NCBI RefSeq assembly: GCF_029338295.1
Contig: NZ_CP119792.1
Location: forward strand, 62,001-126,000
DNA: 64,000 nucleotides
Direction of reading: 5' to 3'
Origin: Haladaptatus sp. QDMS2
Lineage (GTDB): Archaea; Halobacteriota; Halobacteria; Halobacteriales; Halococcaceae
The position numbers were made by a program, and so were the translations under genes. The notes beneath the pieces are model-generated. The model made no database searches. It was not told where the DNA came from and saw only the letters and a program-made list of their open reading frames with translations. Shown here piece after piece: positions 47,031 through 53,405 of this stretch. Every line of letters starts with the position of its first letter. Position 1 is the stretch's first letter.

Positions 47031-47047
47031 TATCGGAAGTATCGGAA
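47031..47047 (+). promoter_or_regulatory. Tandem TATCGGAA sites upstream of orc1
   Basis: TATCGGAA occurs at 47031-47038 and again at 47040-47047 (9-bp period), 45-61 bp before the orc1 start. A related palindrome, CTATCG-N7-CGATAG, is at 46984-47002. A third intergenic copy (48101-48108) precedes the RecA-like gene, and two copies lie inside orc1 (47690, 47703). I found no copy elsewhere in the window by eye. Candidate binding sites for the encoded Orc1/Cdc6 protein. Confidence 0.55.
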
Positions 47048-47091
47048 CCCACCCCATTCCGCTTATCACACTCCCGGTAGACTGGTCTGTC

Positions 47092-48093
47092 ATGATACGG
47101 GATGCGAGAGTGTTGCAGGACGATTTCTTGCCCCAGGAGGTCCAGCACCGCGAGGCAGAAGTCACCCAGCTTTCCACCACGCTCGCAGCCCTCACGCGCG
47201 GTGAAGCCCCCGAAACGGCCTTCCTCTCCGGCCCCAGTGGCGTCGGCAAGACCTGCATCGCGAAGTTCACCGTCGACCGCCTGCGCGAGGAACTCATCGA
47301 CGTGAACCACCAGTACATCAACTGCTGGGAGGACTACAACCGCTATCGCACGCTCTATCGCATTCTCGAAGGCATCGGCCAGACGCTGGACGTGCATCGC
47401 CAATCGACGCCCCTAGACGAACTGCTCGAACGGGTGCGGTCGTACGACGGCCCGCCCTACGTCGTCATCCTCGACGAGGTAGACCAACTCGAAGACACCT
47501 CCGTGCTCTACGACCTGTACAACACCCCGCGGATTCACATGGTCCTCATCGCGAACGAGGAGGACGACCTGTTCGCAGAACTCGAAGAACGGGTGCGCAG
47601 TCGCCTGCTGAGCAGCGTTCGCGTCCGGTTCGAACGCTACCACCTGGAGGAACTCGTCACCATCCTCGAAGACAGAGCGCGGTGGGGATTATCGGAAGGC
47701 GCTATCGGAAAGCAGCAATTGGCCCTCATCGGGGACGCCGCAGCGGGCGATGCGCGGGTCGCAATCGGCATTCTTCGGAACGCCGCGCGACGCGCCCAGC
47801 AGGCGAACGCAGACACTATCTCGTTCGAGATGGTCCACGAATCGATTCCTCGAGGGAAGGCGGAAGTCAGGCGCAAAGCCGTCGATAAACTCCACCCCCA
47901 CCAGCACGCCCTCTACGAGATTCTGCGCGAAGCGGGCGAACTCTCGCCGGGTGAGTTGTACGAACGCTACACGGAGAACGTGGAGAATCCAAAGACCAAG
48001 CGCACGGTCAGAAATTATCTGACGAAGATGGACCATTACGGTCTCGTCATCGCCGAGGGGACGAACCGTGGCCGGACCTATCGCCCACAATGA
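47092..48093 (+). CDS. Orc1/Cdc6-family initiator or regulator
   Basis: The protein is 333 aa, shorter than typical initiators (~400). Walker A is G-P-S-G-V-G-K-T near residue 46, Walker B V-V-I-L-D-E-V-D-Q-L near 124, sensor I L-I-A-N-E-E-D-D near 149, and the arginine-rich sensor-II region D-A-R-V-A-I-G-I-L-R-N-A near 225. A C-terminal winged helix ends the protein (S-P-G-E-L-Y-E-R-Y...K-R-T-V-R-N-Y-L-T-K-M). Paralogues in haloarchaea can start replication or act as regulators. It leads the locus with a RecA-like protein and PolB2, and TATCGGAA sites flank it. Confidence 0.9.
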   Translation: MIRDARVLQDDFLPQEVQHREAEVTQLSTTLAALTRGEAPETAFLSGPSGVGKTCIAKFTVDRLREELIDVNHQYINCWEDYNRYRTLYRILEGIGQTLDVHRQSTPLDELLERVRSYDGPPYVVILDEVDQLEDTSVLYDLYNTPRIHMVLIANEEDDLFAELEERVRSRLLSSVRVRFERYHLEELVTILEDRARWGLSEGAIGKQQLALIGDAAAGDARVAIGILRNAARRAQQANADTISFEMVHESIPRGKAEVRRKAVDKLHPHQHALYEILREAGELSPGELYERYTENVENPKTKRTVRNYLTKMDHYGLVIAEGTNRGRTYRPQ

Positions 48094-48100
48094 ATTAGCA

Positions 48101-48108
48101 TATCGGAA
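48101..48108 (+). promoter_or_regulatory. TATCGGAA site between orc1 and the RecA-like gene
   Basis: A single copy of the octamer lies 8 bp after the orc1 stop and 54 bp before the next ATG, with a similar ACCGGAAG 4 bp further on. It is the same octamer as the tandem pair upstream of orc1, suggesting joint control of both transcription units. Confidence 0.5.
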
Positions 48109-48161
48109 CGACCGGAAGCCACACGCTTTGGGTTATCTCACTGTCTCGCGAATTTTCTGAT

Positions 48162-48836
48162 ATGAAGCCGACGACCGGTGACCCGCCCGCACTGCCGACG
48201 CTCGGGCCAGGAGTCACCAGACTCGAAGCAGACGAAAGAATCACTGGCGCACTACAGTCGCTCGTCTTAGACCACGTCCTCATGAGCAAGGGCGACGCCC
48301 TGTGGGTCGACAGTCGCGCCAACGGAACCACCCAGCCACTCGCCCGGCTCGCCCCGAGTCGTCGGGCGCTCGACCGGATTCACATCGCCCGCGGGTTCAC
48401 GCCGTGGCAACACTACAGCCTGCTTCAGGACCTGCCCGCGGCCGTCACCGAGTCCACGTCGCTCGTCGTCCTGCCTGCTATCGACTGGTTCTACCGGAGT
48501 GACGAGGTTCGGGCGTCGATGGGCAAACGCATGTTCGAGCGCGCGGTCGAGCAGGTCGAAGCCATCGCCACAGACTTTGACGTGCCCGTGCTCGTGACGA
48601 CCCACGAGCAGGATGCGTTCACCGACCCGCTCGTTTCCGTCAGTGCGCCGCTCGAATGCACGCTCACGAAGTTCGGGCCGCGCTTTTCCGGCCAGGAGTT
48701 CGAGACGCTCGTCTACCCCGTCGAATACGGCCTGCTCCAGACGACGCTCGCCTACTGGTGTCAGGTGCTCTCTGCGCGTCACCCGGCGATTACCACGCCG
48801 TCCTCGCGGGAGGTGGCCGCGGGTGGGGCGCACTAA
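48162..48836 (+). CDS. RecA-superfamily protein without Walker A
   Basis: The protein is 224 aa. Segment order follows Rad55/RadB-like RecA folds: G-V-T-R-L-E-A-D near residue 18, L-W-V-D-S-R-A-N near 47, H-I-A-R-G-F-T-P-W-Q-H-Y near 73, then L-V-V-L-P-A-I-D-W-F-Y-R near 100 (Walker B position), ending in a V-L-V-T-T-H-E strand. No G-x4-G-K-S/T is present anywhere, so ATP hydrolysis is unlikely. Bacterial ImuA shows the same loss and works with an error-prone polymerase. Its 3' end overlaps the small gene next to it by 14 bp. Confidence 0.7.
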   Translation: MKPTTGDPPALPTLGPGVTRLEADERITGALQSLVLDHVLMSKGDALWVDSRANGTTQPLARLAPSRRALDRIHIARGFTPWQHYSLLQDLPAAVTESTSLVVLPAIDWFYRSDEVRASMGKRMFERAVEQVEAIATDFDVPVLVTTHEQDAFTDPLVSVSAPLECTLTKFGPRFSGQEFETLVYPVEYGLLQTTLAYWCQVLSARHPAITTPSSREVAAGGAH

Positions 48837-49083
48837 TCCGACCTACCGCGACCTCGTCCGCGGGACCGAGACGCGCTGGCAGGACTATCGGCGGGCGCTG
48901 CGCCGTGACGACCAGCCACACTTCGACCGCCTGTTCGAGCACGCTCGCGCCCACGCCGACGCGGGTGGCTTCCTCAACCACCAGTTCGTCGAACTACCCA
49001 TCTTACTCTCCATCGCGCTCGAACAGGAGAAGGAACTCGCCCGCCTGCGCGAACGCCTCGACCAACTCACGGAGGAGTCGTGA
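48823..49083 (+). CDS. Small coiled-coil protein in the PolB2 operon (86 aa)
   Basis: The protein starts with GTG at 48823 (14-bp overlap with the RecA-like gene) and ends 6 bp before polB. It is not recognised by name. It reads T-Y-R-D-L-V-R-G-T-E-T-R-W-Q-D-Y-R-R-A-L-R-R near residue 7, F-D-R-L-F-E-H-A-R-A-H-A-D-A near 35, and a C-terminal leucine-spaced helix (E-Q-E-K-E-L-A-R-L-R-E-R-L-D-Q-L). The acid/base heptads suggest a coiled coil for protein contacts. Position between RecA-like and polymerase genes argues for an adaptor in one complex. Confidence 0.7.
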   Translation: MGRTNPTYRDLVRGTETRWQDYRRALRRDDQPHFDRLFEHARAHADAGGFLNHQFVELPILLSIALEQEKELARLRERLDQLTEES

Positions 49084-49089
49084 CTACCC

Positions 49090-51186
49090 ATGCCCTTCAC
49101 GTTCGACTACCGCGACGGCGACGTGCTCGCGTGGTCGCTCACCGACGAGGGCGCGACTTACACGCGCGATGAATCCTATACGCCCACCATCTACGTGTCG
49201 GCGCACGGTGCGGGCCATCTCGCTGACGCTGCGGACGTGCTTCGCGGTCATCCCGCTGTGTCGCACGTTCGCGAGGTGAGCGAGCGCGTCAGTTTTCGCC
49301 ACGACACAGAACCCGTCCTCGAAGTCGGCGTCACCGAACTCGACGCGGTGACCATGCTCGCCCACACCATCGCCGGGTGGGGGTCGCCGGGGACGTACCG
49401 CCCCTACAACGTGGACCTCTCGCGGGAGTATCGCTACTGCCTCGAAAACGACATCATGCCCCTGCCCGAGCGCGAGTTGCGCGTCCTGTCACTTTCCACG
49501 CCCGAGTCGAACCTCAGTCGGGGGCGCATCACGACGCTCAAACTCGACGACGAGACGGTCGAGGGCACGCCCGCGGAGGTTCTCGACGTGCTCTCCGTAC
49601 GCCTCGACGCACAGGACCCGGACGTGTTCTTGCTCTCGACGAGCGAACTCGTTCCCGCCCTCTACGAGCAGGCGCGACAGGTCGGCAACGACGAGTTCTA
49701 CCTCGGACGACTGCCCGGCTGGGAGCGTCTCGCCGGGAAATCGACGTACACGAGCTACGGCCGGGTGGGCCATTCGCCTGCTCGCTACAACCTTCCAGGA
49801 CGAGTCATCATCGACCGCAGCAACACGTTCATGTGGAATCAGACGAACCTCGACGGCTGTCTGGACCTCGTGAAGCGTTCGGGGAAACCACTTCAGGAAC
49901 TCGCGTGGGCGTCGATTGGCAACATCCTGACGGCCATCGAAATCAAGGAAGCCCGCAGACGCGGGGTGCTCGTCCCGTGGCACTCGTGGCGTCACGAGCA
50001 ATTCAAGACGATGAACCAGCTTCACGAGGCAGACCGCGGCGGGTTCACCTTCGCGCCGAAGGTGGGCCTCCACGAGGACGTCCACGAACTCGACTTCTCC
50101 TCGCTGTATCCGAACATCATCGTGACGCGGAACGTGAGTCCCGAGAAGATTCGGTGTGACTGCCACGCCGGCCGCGAGGACGTGCCCGGTCTTGGTTACG
50201 CTATCTGCGACGAGCGCGGGTATCTCCCGAACGTGCTCGAACCGCTCATCGCAGACCGGGATGCGTACAAGCGCGAACTCGCAGAGACGGATGACCCAGC
50301 GCGGCGAGCCGTCCTCGAAGGCCGGTCGAACGCGCTCAAGTGGATTCTCGTCTCCTCCTTTGGCTACCAGGGGTTTTCGAACGCGAAGTTCGGGCGCATC
50401 GAGTGCCACGAAGCAATCAACGCCTTCGCACGCCAGATTCTCCTCGACGCGAAGGATGTGTTCGAGGCGAACGGCTGGCGCGTCGTCCACGGCATCGTGG
50501 ATAGTCTCTGGGTGACGGCCGTCGAGGACGAGGAGCAGACGCCGCTCGACGAGTTGGCGAAGGAGATTACCGACGCGGTGGGCATTCGACTGGAGTACGA
50601 GACGGCCTACGACTGGATTGCCTTCGTTCCCCTGCGGTCGAGCAACGCCGGGGCGCTCACCAAGTACTTCGGGAAGAAAGCGAGTGGCGAATACAAATAC
50701 CGGGGCATCGAGGTTCGCCAGCGCAGCACGCCTCCGTTCGTCAAAGAAGCGCAGAAAGACCTCATCGAGACGCTCGACACCCACCGGACGCCCGAGGCGG
50801 TGTGCGACCGTCTGCAGGTGTGGCTTGGAAAACTCCGATCAGGGAAGGTAGACACCGCCGAACTGGTCGTCACGAATCGCGTCTCGAAGTCTCTGGAAGA
50901 GTATTCGCAATCGACGCGGAACGTGGCCGCACTCGAACGGGCGGCGAAACTTGGACGGTCCCGTGGCCCGGGGCAGAAGGTGCAGTACGTCGTAGTCGAC
51001 GACGCCGCGGACGACATCGACCGAGTTGCACTTGCAAGCGAGCACCCGAGTGAGTACGACGTCGAGTTCTACTGTGACCTTTTGCTCCGAGCGGCCGAGA
51101 GCGTGGTGTCACCACTCGGGTGGCGTCGGTCGCGGATATCGTCGTATCTGGCAGAGCGCGTGGATGCGTCGTTGAGTGCGTATTGA
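49090..51186 (+). CDS. polB2: Family B DNA polymerase, PolB2 type
   Basis: The protein is 698 aa. Motif A is E-L-D-F-S-S-L-Y-P-N-I near residue 335 with the Asp kept. Motif B is L-K-W-I-L-V-S-S-F-G-Y near 415, with a Lys and a Tyr kept. Motif C, normally Y-G-D-T-D-S, is H-G-I-V-D-S near 470: the first catalytic Asp is replaced by Ile. The 3'-5' exonuclease motifs are not recognisable. This pattern fits archaeal PolB2, for which degenerate catalytic centres and damage-linked roles have been reported in other archaea. It ends an operon with the RecA-like and coiled-coil genes. Confidence 0.85.
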   Translation: MPFTFDYRDGDVLAWSLTDEGATYTRDESYTPTIYVSAHGAGHLADAADVLRGHPAVSHVREVSERVSFRHDTEPVLEVGVTELDAVTMLAHTIAGWGSPGTYRPYNVDLSREYRYCLENDIMPLPERELRVLSLSTPESNLSRGRITTLKLDDETVEGTPAEVLDVLSVRLDAQDPDVFLLSTSELVPALYEQARQVGNDEFYLGRLPGWERLAGKSTYTSYGRVGHSPARYNLPGRVIIDRSNTFMWNQTNLDGCLDLVKRSGKPLQELAWASIGNILTAIEIKEARRRGVLVPWHSWRHEQFKTMNQLHEADRGGFTFAPKVGLHEDVHELDFSSLYPNIIVTRNVSPEKIRCDCHAGREDVPGLGYAICDERGYLPNVLEPLIADRDAYKRELAETDDPARRAVLEGRSNALKWILVSSFGYQGFSNAKFGRIECHEAINAFARQILLDAKDVFEANGWRVVHGIVDSLWVTAVEDEEQTPLDELAKEITDAVGIRLEYETAYDWIAFVPLRSSNAGALTKYFGKKASGEYKYRGIEVRQRSTPPFVKEAQKDLIETLDTHRTPEAVCDRLQVWLGKLRSGKVDTAELVVTNRVSKSLEEYSQSTRNVAALERAAKLGRSRGPGQKVQYVVVDDAADDIDRVALASEHPSEYDVEFYCDLLLRAAESVVSPLGWRRSRISSYLAERVDASLSAY

Positions 51187-51281
51187 GTGAAACACCAGAA
51201 CTTAAGATATCTCCTGCGCCACCAATACGAGAAATTATTCCTCGAAGTAAGAATTATATCCTTCACTCTGCAACTCCGAGT

Positions 51282-51812
51282 ATGGTCGAGACAGACGCGA
51301 ATGGACCACCTCCCTTCGAAGATGCGTTCGCCGGCGACGACGTCGAACAACGCATCTACGGCACCATCCTCCAGACCCGAGAACCGACGACAGCGAGTGC
51401 AATTGCCGACACCGCCGACTGTGACCCGAAGACTGCCCGGAAGTATCTGAACTGGTTCGACAATCTGGGAATCGTCACCCGACACGACGGCCATCCAGCC
51501 ACCTACGAACGGAATGACGCGTACTTCGAGTGGCGGCGCATCAACCAGCTCGCAGCCGACCACGCTGTCGAGGACCTCCAGACCCGCGTTCGCGAGCTGA
51601 CGACGCGCATCACTGAGTACGAAGACACGTACGATGCCGTCTCACCGGCCGCCGTGGATGCCGTCGCCGTCGCAGAAGTCAGCGATGACCAAACCATCGA
51701 CGACGTGTACAGCGACCTCGCTGACTGGGCGACCACCCGTGAGGAACGAGAACGCTACGAACGCGCCCGCCAGCAACGCATGGGCAGCGAACGCGAGCAG
51801 GCATCCGGGTAG
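51282..51812 (+). CDS. DUF7342-type wHTH/coiled-coil regulator, copy D
   Basis: The protein is 176 aa from M-V-E-T-D-A-N-G; the ORF start at 51120 overlaps polB and is rejected. Winged helix: I-L-Q-T-R-E-P-T-T-A-S-A-I-A-D-T-A with K-T-A-R-K-Y-L-N-W-F-D-N-L-G-I-V. The long helix (L-Q-T-R-V-R-E-L-T-T-R-I-T-E-Y-E-D) and S-P-A-A-V-D segment follow, but the L-R marker of other copies is absent. The final helix is R-E-E-R-E-R-Y-E-R-A-R. It lies 95 bp after polB2 and 8 bp before its partner gene. This is the most diverged of the four copies. Confidence 0.75.
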   Translation: MVETDANGPPPFEDAFAGDDVEQRIYGTILQTREPTTASAIADTADCDPKTARKYLNWFDNLGIVTRHDGHPATYERNDAYFEWRRINQLAADHAVEDLQTRVRELTTRITEYEDTYDAVSPAAVDAVAVAEVSDDQTIDDVYSDLADWATTREERERYERARQQRMGSEREQASG

Positions 51813-51820
51813 TCCGCTCG

Positions 51821-52264
51821 ATGGTGCCACCGACAGGCGATGGCGGGAGCCCTGCCCCCATCGACCGACCACTCCTCGAGTTTCTTCAAACGCGGCTCGC
51901 AGCAACGAGACAAGTCTCCCGAGCGACTGTCACGGACGCAAGCGGCCACCTCGAACTTCGCGTCCGGTTCGCGTCGCCGTACTATCCAGCGACCCTCGAC
52001 GAGGCGACGCTGACGGTTCGCTGGTACACGAACGACGACTTCAAACTCCACTATCGAGAGACGCACGCGGACCACGCATGGGAGTGCCGGTGGGACCGTC
52101 ACTCGAATCCCCATAATACACGAGCCCACTTCCACCCCCCACCCACCGCCTCGACACCTGGCCAGGACGCGTCGTGGCCGGACGATCATCGTGACGTCGT
52201 TGCACTTGTCCTCGACGAGATCGAAGACCGAATCGCGGCTCTGTGGGACGAGTACCGAGGATAG
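51821..52264 (+). CDS. Small partner protein of the DUF7342-type regulator, copy D (TumE-like toxin candidate)
   Basis: The protein is 147 aa. Core: A-T-L-T-V-R-W-Y-T-N-D-D near residue 66, F-K-L-H-Y-R-E-T-H-A-D-H near 78, C-R-W-D-R-H-S-N-P-H-N near 94, then H-F-H-P-P near 108 and a C-terminal helix D-V-V-A-L-V-L-D-E-I-E. The W-D-R-H-x-N-P-H...H-F-H arrangement is close to the W-D-N-x-P-H-H core of TumE toxins. It starts 8 bp after its regulator's stop. The match to the copy A partner (W-Y...F-R-V-N-Y...H-F-Q-Y) supports one family. Confidence 0.7.
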   Translation: MVPPTGDGGSPAPIDRPLLEFLQTRLAATRQVSRATVTDASGHLELRVRFASPYYPATLDEATLTVRWYTNDDFKLHYRETHADHAWECRWDRHSNPHNTRAHFHPPPTASTPGQDASWPDDHRDVVALVLDEIEDRIAALWDEYRG

Positions 52265-52433
52265 CTCGACGACGAACCGGGTCAGCCGTAAACCTTCGTC
52301 AGGCAAGGGGGTGAATCGACGGGGGATTCCCACCCGCTGGGAATCCGCCATTCGCTCTTTGTCCGTCCCCGAGTGGGTGTTGCTAGAGACCGTCACACGA
52401 GTCGGTCGGCGTCCCGAGCGTGCACCCACGACC

Positions 52434-53405
52434 ATGACACGAACGAAACTCTCCCGGAGGGAAGCCCCGTCGAGCGAACGAACCGCGACGACAGATGCGC
52501 GAGCGAAAACTCAGTGCCCAGAGTGCAACGGGCGAATCGTCCAAGACGGCGGCCGCGGCGAATCGACGTGCGAGGATTGTGGCCTAGTGGTCGACGAAGA
52601 CGACCTCGACCACGGCCCCGAGTGGCGGGCGTACACCGCCGGCGAACGAGACGACAAGAGCCGCGTCGGCGCACCGACGACGCAACTCATCCACGATAAG
52701 GGCCTCAGTTCGACGATTAGCTGGCAGGACAAAGACGCCTACGGCAAGCCCGTCTCGGAACGCAAACGCAGTCGGCTGAAGCGCCTTCGCACGTGGGACG
52801 AACGCTACCGGACGAAAGATTCTCACGAGCGGAATCTCAGGCAGGCACTCGGCGAAATCAGCCGCATGGCCTCTGCTCTCGGACTCGGCGAACCGATTCG
52901 CGAGACGGCGGGGGTCATCTACCGACGCGCCCTCTCTGAAAATCTGCTTCCGGGTCGGTCCATCGAAGGGATGGCGACAGCATCGCTGTACGCTGCCGCG
53001 CGCCAGCAGGGCGTCCCGCGCCCGCTCTCCGAGTTCACCGAGGTTAGCCGGGTAGACGAGACGCGCATTCAGCGGGCGTATCGCTACCTCTCGCGGGAAC
53101 TCGCCCTCGAAATCGAACCGGAGAATCCGGCGCAGTACCTCCCGCAGTTCGCCTCCGCCCTCGAGGTTGACGACGAGGTAGAACGACAGGCTCGCGAGCT
53201 GCTGTCCGTCTCGAAGGGAACGGGGGCGCACGTCGGCAAGAGTCCGGTTGGACTGGCCGCCGCGGCACTCTACGCTGCGACCCAACTCACGAACAGGAAG
53301 GTGACACAGGAGCGCGTCGGCGACGTGGCCCGCGTCAGCGTCGTCACCATCCGCAATCGCTATCAGGACCTGCTCACCGAATACGAGACCCAGCGAGATG
53401 TGTGA
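52434..53405 (+). CDS. tfb: Transcription initiation factor TFB
   Basis: The protein is 323 aa from M-T-R-T-K-L-S-R-R; the ORF to 52191 overlaps the partner gene and has low-complexity content. The zinc ribbon is C-P-E-C-N near residue 28 and C-E-D-C-G-L-V-V near 48. D-H-G-P-E-W-R-A-Y begins the B-finger/reader region. Two cyclin-like repeats follow (L-P-G-R-S-I-E-G-M-A-T-A-S-L-Y-A-A-A-R near 178, G-K-S-P-V-G-L-A-A-A-A-L-Y-A-A near 270). Haloarchaea carry many TFB paralogues with specialised promoters. It overlaps the wHTH gene after it by 8 bp. Confidence 0.95.
   Translation: MTRTKLSRREAPSSERTATTDARAKTQCPECNGRIVQDGGRGESTCEDCGLVVDEDDLDHGPEWRAYTAGERDDKSRVGAPTTQLIHDKGLSSTISWQDKDAYGKPVSERKRSRLKRLRTWDERYRTKDSHERNLRQALGEISRMASALGLGEPIRETAGVIYRRALSENLLPGRSIEGMATASLYAAARQQGVPRPLSEFTEVSRVDETRIQRAYRYLSRELALEIEPENPAQYLPQFASALEVDDEVERQARELLSVSKGTGAHVGKSPVGLAAAALYAATQLTNRKVTQERVGDVARVSVVTIRNRYQDLLTEYETQRDV

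Follow-up and report, generated by a model that had tools for sequence, protein, structure and literature searches.

Tandem GGAA boxes and a probable dedicated Orc1 switch in a haloarchaeal PolB2 mutasome cassette

How LexA-less archaea turn on mutagenic polymerases is largely an open question outside the Sulfolobales, in which Orc1-2 binds its own promoter, activates Dpo2 and is required for Dpo2 induction (PMC9738581). In 2014, Makarova, Krupovic and Koonin described an operon that joins PolB2 to an inactivated RadA and an arCOG07300 protein, with an arORC2 gene often present in euryarchaea (PMC4104785). Timinskas (2025) named the partners PPB2 and iRadA, modelled a five-chain complex and found orc1/cdc6 enriched near polB2, in a paper that treats no promoter element and in which the words 'promoter' and 'operator' do not occur (PMC11791011). 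The locus analysed here – four genes (orc1, iRadA, PPB2 and polB2), all on the plus strand, that fill positions 47092-51186 of a 64,000-nucleotide (nt) window of Haladaptatus sp. QDMS2 – is a haloarchaeal version of this published error-prone PolB2 mutasome operon; the polymerase complex and its orc linkage are not new. What is added is a short box shared by the orc and iRadA promoters, which appears undescribed: the literature searched, with subscription journals outside its scope, held no earlier description of a locus-restricted Orc box common to orc and mutasome. We consider it probable that the locus is a mutasome cassette with a dedicated Orc1 switch acting on two such GGAA boxes.

The box, a tandem direct repeat, precedes both orc1 and iRadA, each time just upstream of a TATA-like element (Table 1). 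An alignment that includes 32 orc promoters gives the consensus T[AT][TC]CGGAA-N-T[AT][TC]CGGAA-(A)CGACCC...TTTAT, with a box-TATA spacing that is constant in both promoters. The relatives' loci were gathered in batches (29, then 80 named, then 40 more) and yielded 124 usable ones, 66 of them orc-linked and 58 orc-less. Counted in the orc-linked haloarchaeal loci as [CT]GGAA-N4-[CT]GGAA and set against shuffled upstream regions, the box is found upstream of orc in 32 of 66 (shuffle mean 0.085, maximum 1) – all 32 beginning between -58 and -64 relative to the start – and upstream of iRadA in 32 of 66 (shuffle mean 0.27, maximum 3). Halorubrum- and Haloarcula-type operons carry a variant, TTTCCGGAAACGACCC at orc and CTGAAACGCGGAAGCGACACGCCG at iRadA.

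The box is also rare. With up to two mismatches, the 17-mer has three copies in the whole window genome, two of them at this locus; in G001, the nearest relative, a looser pattern matches just twice, both times at the orc-linked polB2 locus. As the looser pattern matches many unrelated places in other genomes, a stricter one was chosen for an unbiased scan: over 118 genomes it gave 14 matches, ten of them beside the orc subfamily linked to PolB2 operons, and its reversed control gave none. Upstream of orc, the window and G001 are identical at 51 of 61 positions from box to ATG and match at chance level beyond the box. Two more TATCGGAA copies lie inside orc1 (window 47690-47710), 13 nt apart, and also in one of the G001 loci (L045; 5601 and 5614); all five TATCGGAA copies of the window fall within 1.1 kb.

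Box and Orc subfamily track each other across genomes. In the tree, the PolB2-linked Orcs group as a single clade that excludes the seven other Orcs taken from the genome, and the box class follows the Orc tree, with 18 changes against 42.7 after shuffling, a result that near-copies inflate. In each of ten genomes checked that have a GGAA-type operon and no linked Orc of the subfamily, such an Orc (53-67% identity) is encoded at another place or a little beyond the fetched stretch; G053, an eleventh genome, has a 38% sister Orc only. Most of the orc genes so found carry a box of their own. Sister subfamilies were also seen with boxes: one (40-42% identity; L333, L335, L342) has CGGAA-N5-CGGAA upstream, with a 10-nt period, and another (37-38%; L053, L057, L336) carries the ultraviolet (UV) box treated below. 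Taken together, the rarity of the box, the edge of homology at it, the orphan orcs, the 118-genome scan and the tree point to Orc as its likely binder.

Several observations weigh against this reading. About a third of the orc-linked iRadA upstream regions lack a box under the patterns used (44 of 66 carry one), boxes are missing from some Orc clades, there are GGAA-box operons without a linked orc, and a few boxes in other genomes precede unrelated genes (L346, L350, L354); part of the clustering of box types on the Orc tree is due to near-copies, and the GGAA boxes differ from the ANTTTC element of the Sulfolobales. The boxes before unrelated genes, and the many operons that retain a box without a linked orc, would suit another, unlinked regulator, with Orc1 as a co-regulated member of the response that perhaps acts with PolB2 at stalled forks; we nevertheless find this improbable, given that genomes with a box and no linked orc do have a member of this Orc subfamily, that the box stays with orphan orcs and its type follows Orc phylogeny, and that a general regulator would have no obvious part to play in the two-site regulon of G001.

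Orc1 as the binder would occupy two tandem GGAA boxes, each upstream of a B-recognition element (BRE) and TATA in like geometry, and thereby control its own gene and the mutasome jointly, its regulon comprising some two sites. By analogy with Sulfolobales Orc1-2 and Dpo2, the signal would be DNA damage, after which Orc1 would activate itself and the mutasome; iRadA, PPB2 and PolB2 would be translated from one mRNA and, judging by homology, form the published complex, which would extend DNA past lesions in an error-prone manner. Activation with positive feedback is favoured over repression because the box sits upstream of the TATA element; the region upstream of BRE/TATA is a usual site for archaeal activators. 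The main alternative within the same model, in which Orc1 represses the cassette and is released on damage, seems to us unlikely though worth keeping in mind: autoregulation via two like operators would also fit a LexA-like repressor, and in bacteria a link between PolB2 operons and lexA is on record (PMC11791011; PMC4104785), but the box lies wholly upstream of BRE/TATA, 15 nt before TATA, and Dpo2 induction in the Sulfolobales depends on Orc1-2 (PMC9738581). The original prediction had supposed Orc1 control, pointing to an Orc1-type regulator of the Sulfolobales. The box common to orc1 and iRadA strengthens the idea of Orc1 control; that control would be neither global nor through ANTTTC, of which none was seen by eye between 46954 and 47091, where the tandem GGAA box stands instead. 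A global Orc regulon in the window genome was considered and found no support, the box being nearly confined to the two sites of the locus.

Orc1 belongs to a family of initiators, and the boxes could also be read as origin recognition box (ORB) elements, making orc1 and its surroundings the replication origin of the ~598-kb replicon and the mutasome a passenger. Haloarchaeal orc genes often adjoin origins, each Orc family having its own ORB type (PMC3528665), and this replicon bears several orc genes. We judge this highly improbable all the same: around orc1 there is neither an inverted long-repeat pair with a G-string nor an AT-rich stretch, which speaks against an origin there, the gap upstream of the gene is only ~140 bp, and the boxes are direct repeats at a fixed promoter spacing, the second of them preceding iRadA. 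Most likely, Orc1 does not start replication here.

The switch proposed for Orc1 would not be the only one for this machine. The motif TTTCACTTTCA was described as the UV-B motif of the UV-induced genes radA1 and top6B in Halobacterium (Boubriak 2008, PMC2556686), and the UV box TTTCACTTTCAC stands before iRadA in 15 of the 58 orc-less PolB2 operons and in none of the 66 orc-linked ones (Fisher 3.7e-6). Against this exclusion, the tree-corrected test is not significant (0 versus 3-5 independent pairs, p ~0.125, in the same direction and underpowered), and the dichotomy is for that reason a pattern rather than proof. At E 1e-30, no Orc of the subfamily turned up in four genomes that carry the UV box (G002, G041, G045, G136). 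Over 60 relatives the UV box clearly outnumbers its reversed control; eight of the sites read have it before radA, the window genome's own radA (L108) among them, and it also precedes top6B, helicases of the Hef and Lhr types and an RPA-like protein (so named by reading; Pfam gives no match). In related species the same machine may be run by two alternative circuits, the Orc box and the UV box of 2008. In the window itself, the UV box is absent at iRadA and was not seen upstream of orc1, and UV-box control of the operon was rejected on its absence.

Several haloarchaea (L104-L163) also have TTTCACTTTCAC before a Hef-type helicase/ERCC4, an M29 peptidase and small cysteine-rich proteins, and ~175 nt upstream of an ilvA-like gene, an apparently wider UV-box regulon. 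At ~1500 of L354, a GGAA box is followed directly by a TTTCACTTTCAC box, and the pair precedes a small CPNGHTNWEPTNNH protein whose family has a UV box upstream in L152 too; cross-talk of the two circuits is possible there.

Copies of the two types can coexist. G001 has a chromosomal polB2 operon (L073 and L045 are both G001 loci) with a degenerate UV box and a split polB2 whose middle part is missing, residues 474-564 being unmatched; a 404-kb contig of G001 also holds an intact orc-linked polB2 copy. In G002 there is the chromosomal UV-box copy only, and in the window genome – haloarchaeal, with three contigs and 3.88 Mb, the window lying on the 598-kb contig C2 – the orc-linked copy only. 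A division into orc-linked plasmid copies and UV-box chromosomal copies was seen in G001, G042 and G083, which have both types, and is not claimed, since orc-linked copies also occur on chromosome-sized contigs.

If both promoters of the regulon do lie within the cassette, the mutasome could move independently of the host's UV-box circuit. We put forward, tentatively, a broader picture of self-contained damage-tolerance cassettes, mobile between plasmids and chromosomes, in which an origin-binding protein – probably a former initiator – has become the dedicated, self-regulating switch of one polymerase complex through two cassette-borne promoters. A short box that orc and mutasome have in common, and that is almost without further copies in the genome, makes the suspected Orc control a two-site experiment, directly testable in a genetically tractable group.

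The layout of the locus is given in Table 1. PPB2 starts 14 nt before the end of iRadA and ends 6 nt before polB2; a 68-nt gap separates orc1 from iRadA, and each of the two has a promoter-like element, so that orc1 is probably its own transcription unit beside the three-gene operon. The original prediction had placed an Orc1, a RecA-like protein without Walker A, a coiled-coil gene and a PolB2 here, and read them as a candidate mutasome. Orc1, the RecA-like protein and PolB2 are all present; the small gene is there as well, with its start corrected to a GTG at 48823 (MGRTNPTYRDLV...) and its product recognised as PPB2. The single transcription unit supposed to follow orc1 holds for the three same-strand genes, orc1 probably lying outside it with its own promoter, and the mutasome idea – an inactive RecA-fold protein, a small partner and an odd polymerase – agrees with earlier work (PMC4104785, PMC11791011) and gains support from the box shared by orc1 and iRadA and from the predicted iRadA structure, without being a new system. 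The order iRadA-PPB2-PolB2 recurs across haloarchaea, which argues that the arrangement is not due to chance, with orc linked in 66 of the 124 usable loci; operon order and the MGRT, IVD and D(K/R) motifs are kept in more than 100 haloarchaeal loci.

Table 1. Genes and promoter elements of the cassette, in window coordinates
Feature	Position	Strand	Description
Tandem GGAA box, orc1 promoter	47031..47047	+	TATCGGAA-G-TATCGGAA; candidate Orc-binding operator
TATA-like CTTAT, orc1	47062..47066	+	TTAT starts 15 nt past the box, ~26 nt before ATG
orc1	47092..48093	+	333 residues; Orc1/Cdc6-family AAA+ ATPase with winged helix; PolB2-operon-linked subfamily
Tandem GGAA box, iRadA promoter	48101..48117	+	TATCGGAA-C-GACCGGAA
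TATA-like TTAT, iRadA-PPB2-polB2 operon	48133..48136	+	15 nt past the box, ~26 nt before the start codon
iRadA	48162..48836	+	224 residues; RadA/Rad51 fold, without Walker A and without N-terminal domain
PPB2	48823..49083	+	arCOG07300-type; small, putatively helical partner; GTG start; N-terminal MGRT arm
PolB2	49090..51186	+	698 residues; B-family polymerase; motif A intact, motif C altered

Orc1 matches the Pfam families Cdc6 lid (5e-13) and AAA_22 (1.2e-11) and, over the cut-off, the NCBIfam orc1/cdc6 model TIGR02928 (3e-54), and both its Walker motifs (A, GPSGVGKTC; B, VVILDEVDQL) are intact. Because the sequence likeness of iRadA to Rad51 is weak (Pfam 8.4e-4, under the curated cut-off), its structure was predicted with AlphaFold from an alignment of the window protein and 31 homologues of named genomes. 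The model is of good quality (predicted local distance difference test, pLDDT, 85.9; predicted template-modelling score, pTM, 0.82) and has RadA, Rad51 and DMC1 as its top solved-structure matches (E 2e-10, probability 1.00); the kinship with RecA, which an unrelated predicted fold would have spoken against, is thereby upheld. On this model iRadA is a RecA/RadA-related, inactive RadA paralogue, and the P-loop is replaced or absent in 26 aligned homologues.

PPB2 begins MGRTNPTYRD at 48823, and M1, G2 and R3 are invariant, T4 nearly so, in 31 homologues; the N-terminal MGRT arm is a mark of PPB2 (PMC11791011). PolB2 matches Pfam DNA_pol_B (5.8e-30) and NCBIfam NF004418 (1040 bits). Its motif A (DFSSLYP) is intact and its D(K/R) motif is present as IIDRSN, while in motif C HGIVDS replaces xxDTDS, 'IVD' for 'DxD', with loss of the first Asp. 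I469-V470-D471 do not vary among 14 homologues. No clamp-binding QxxLxxFF was obvious by eye at the C-termini of iRadA (...SREVAAGGAH) and PolB2 (...ISSYLAERVDASLSAY), where weak motifs are possible. Six Haladaptatus-type polB2 loci (L167, L169, L170, L171, L199, L295) have a PPB2-like protein without the MGRT arm (MSQTSHIEAGWDEYRRALRP...) and no iRadA detectable near polB2; in L198 the PPB2 reading frame runs on to 481 residues, possibly a fusion or extension.

Downstream of polB2, at window 51120-53405, lie a DUF7342/helix-turn-helix protein and a full-length TFB. In the Sulfolobales, TFB3 is a damage coactivator. L207 (Halobacterium sp. CBA1126) likewise has both proteins beside polB2, at 50% and 56% identity; as this is the only other locus where the two stand together near polB2, matches elsewhere being weaker or isolated, they were rejected as conserved partners and left out of the core.

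Among known systems, the ImuA-ImuB-DnaE2 mutasome named in the original prediction shares with this locus a RecA-fold partner of a specialised polymerase and a presumed mutasome-like mode of action. It is not the closest parallel, since DnaE2 belongs to another polymerase family: no C-family DnaE2 with ImuB is found at the locus, whose polymerase is of family B. The PolB2 mutasome itself and Pol V (UmuC-UmuD'2-RecA) come closest. The polymerases of ImuA-ImuB-DnaE2 and Pol V belong to families C and Y, their accessory proteins differ from PPB2, and the systems are not homologous as wholes. With the PolB2-iRadA-PPB2 mutasome, by contrast, the locus shares gene order, the MGRT arm, the lost first Asp of DxD, an inactive RadA without N-terminal domain and an orc/cdc6 nearby; unlike in the 2025 paper, a promoter box of orc and iRadA is described here. 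The UV-B motif is, like the GGAA box, placed just upstream of TATA, yet the two differ in sequence and repeat period. Like Sulfolobales Orc1-2 (PMC9738581), the present Orc1 is an Orc1/Cdc6-family protein with candidate sites at its own promoter and, presumably, at the PolB2-operon promoter, and the AAA+ and winged-helix architecture with intact Walker motifs of the Orc1-2 type is found in Orc1 as well; but Orc1-2 is a global regulator acting on ANTTTC, whereas the candidate site here, the tandem GGAA repeat, hardly occurs outside the locus.

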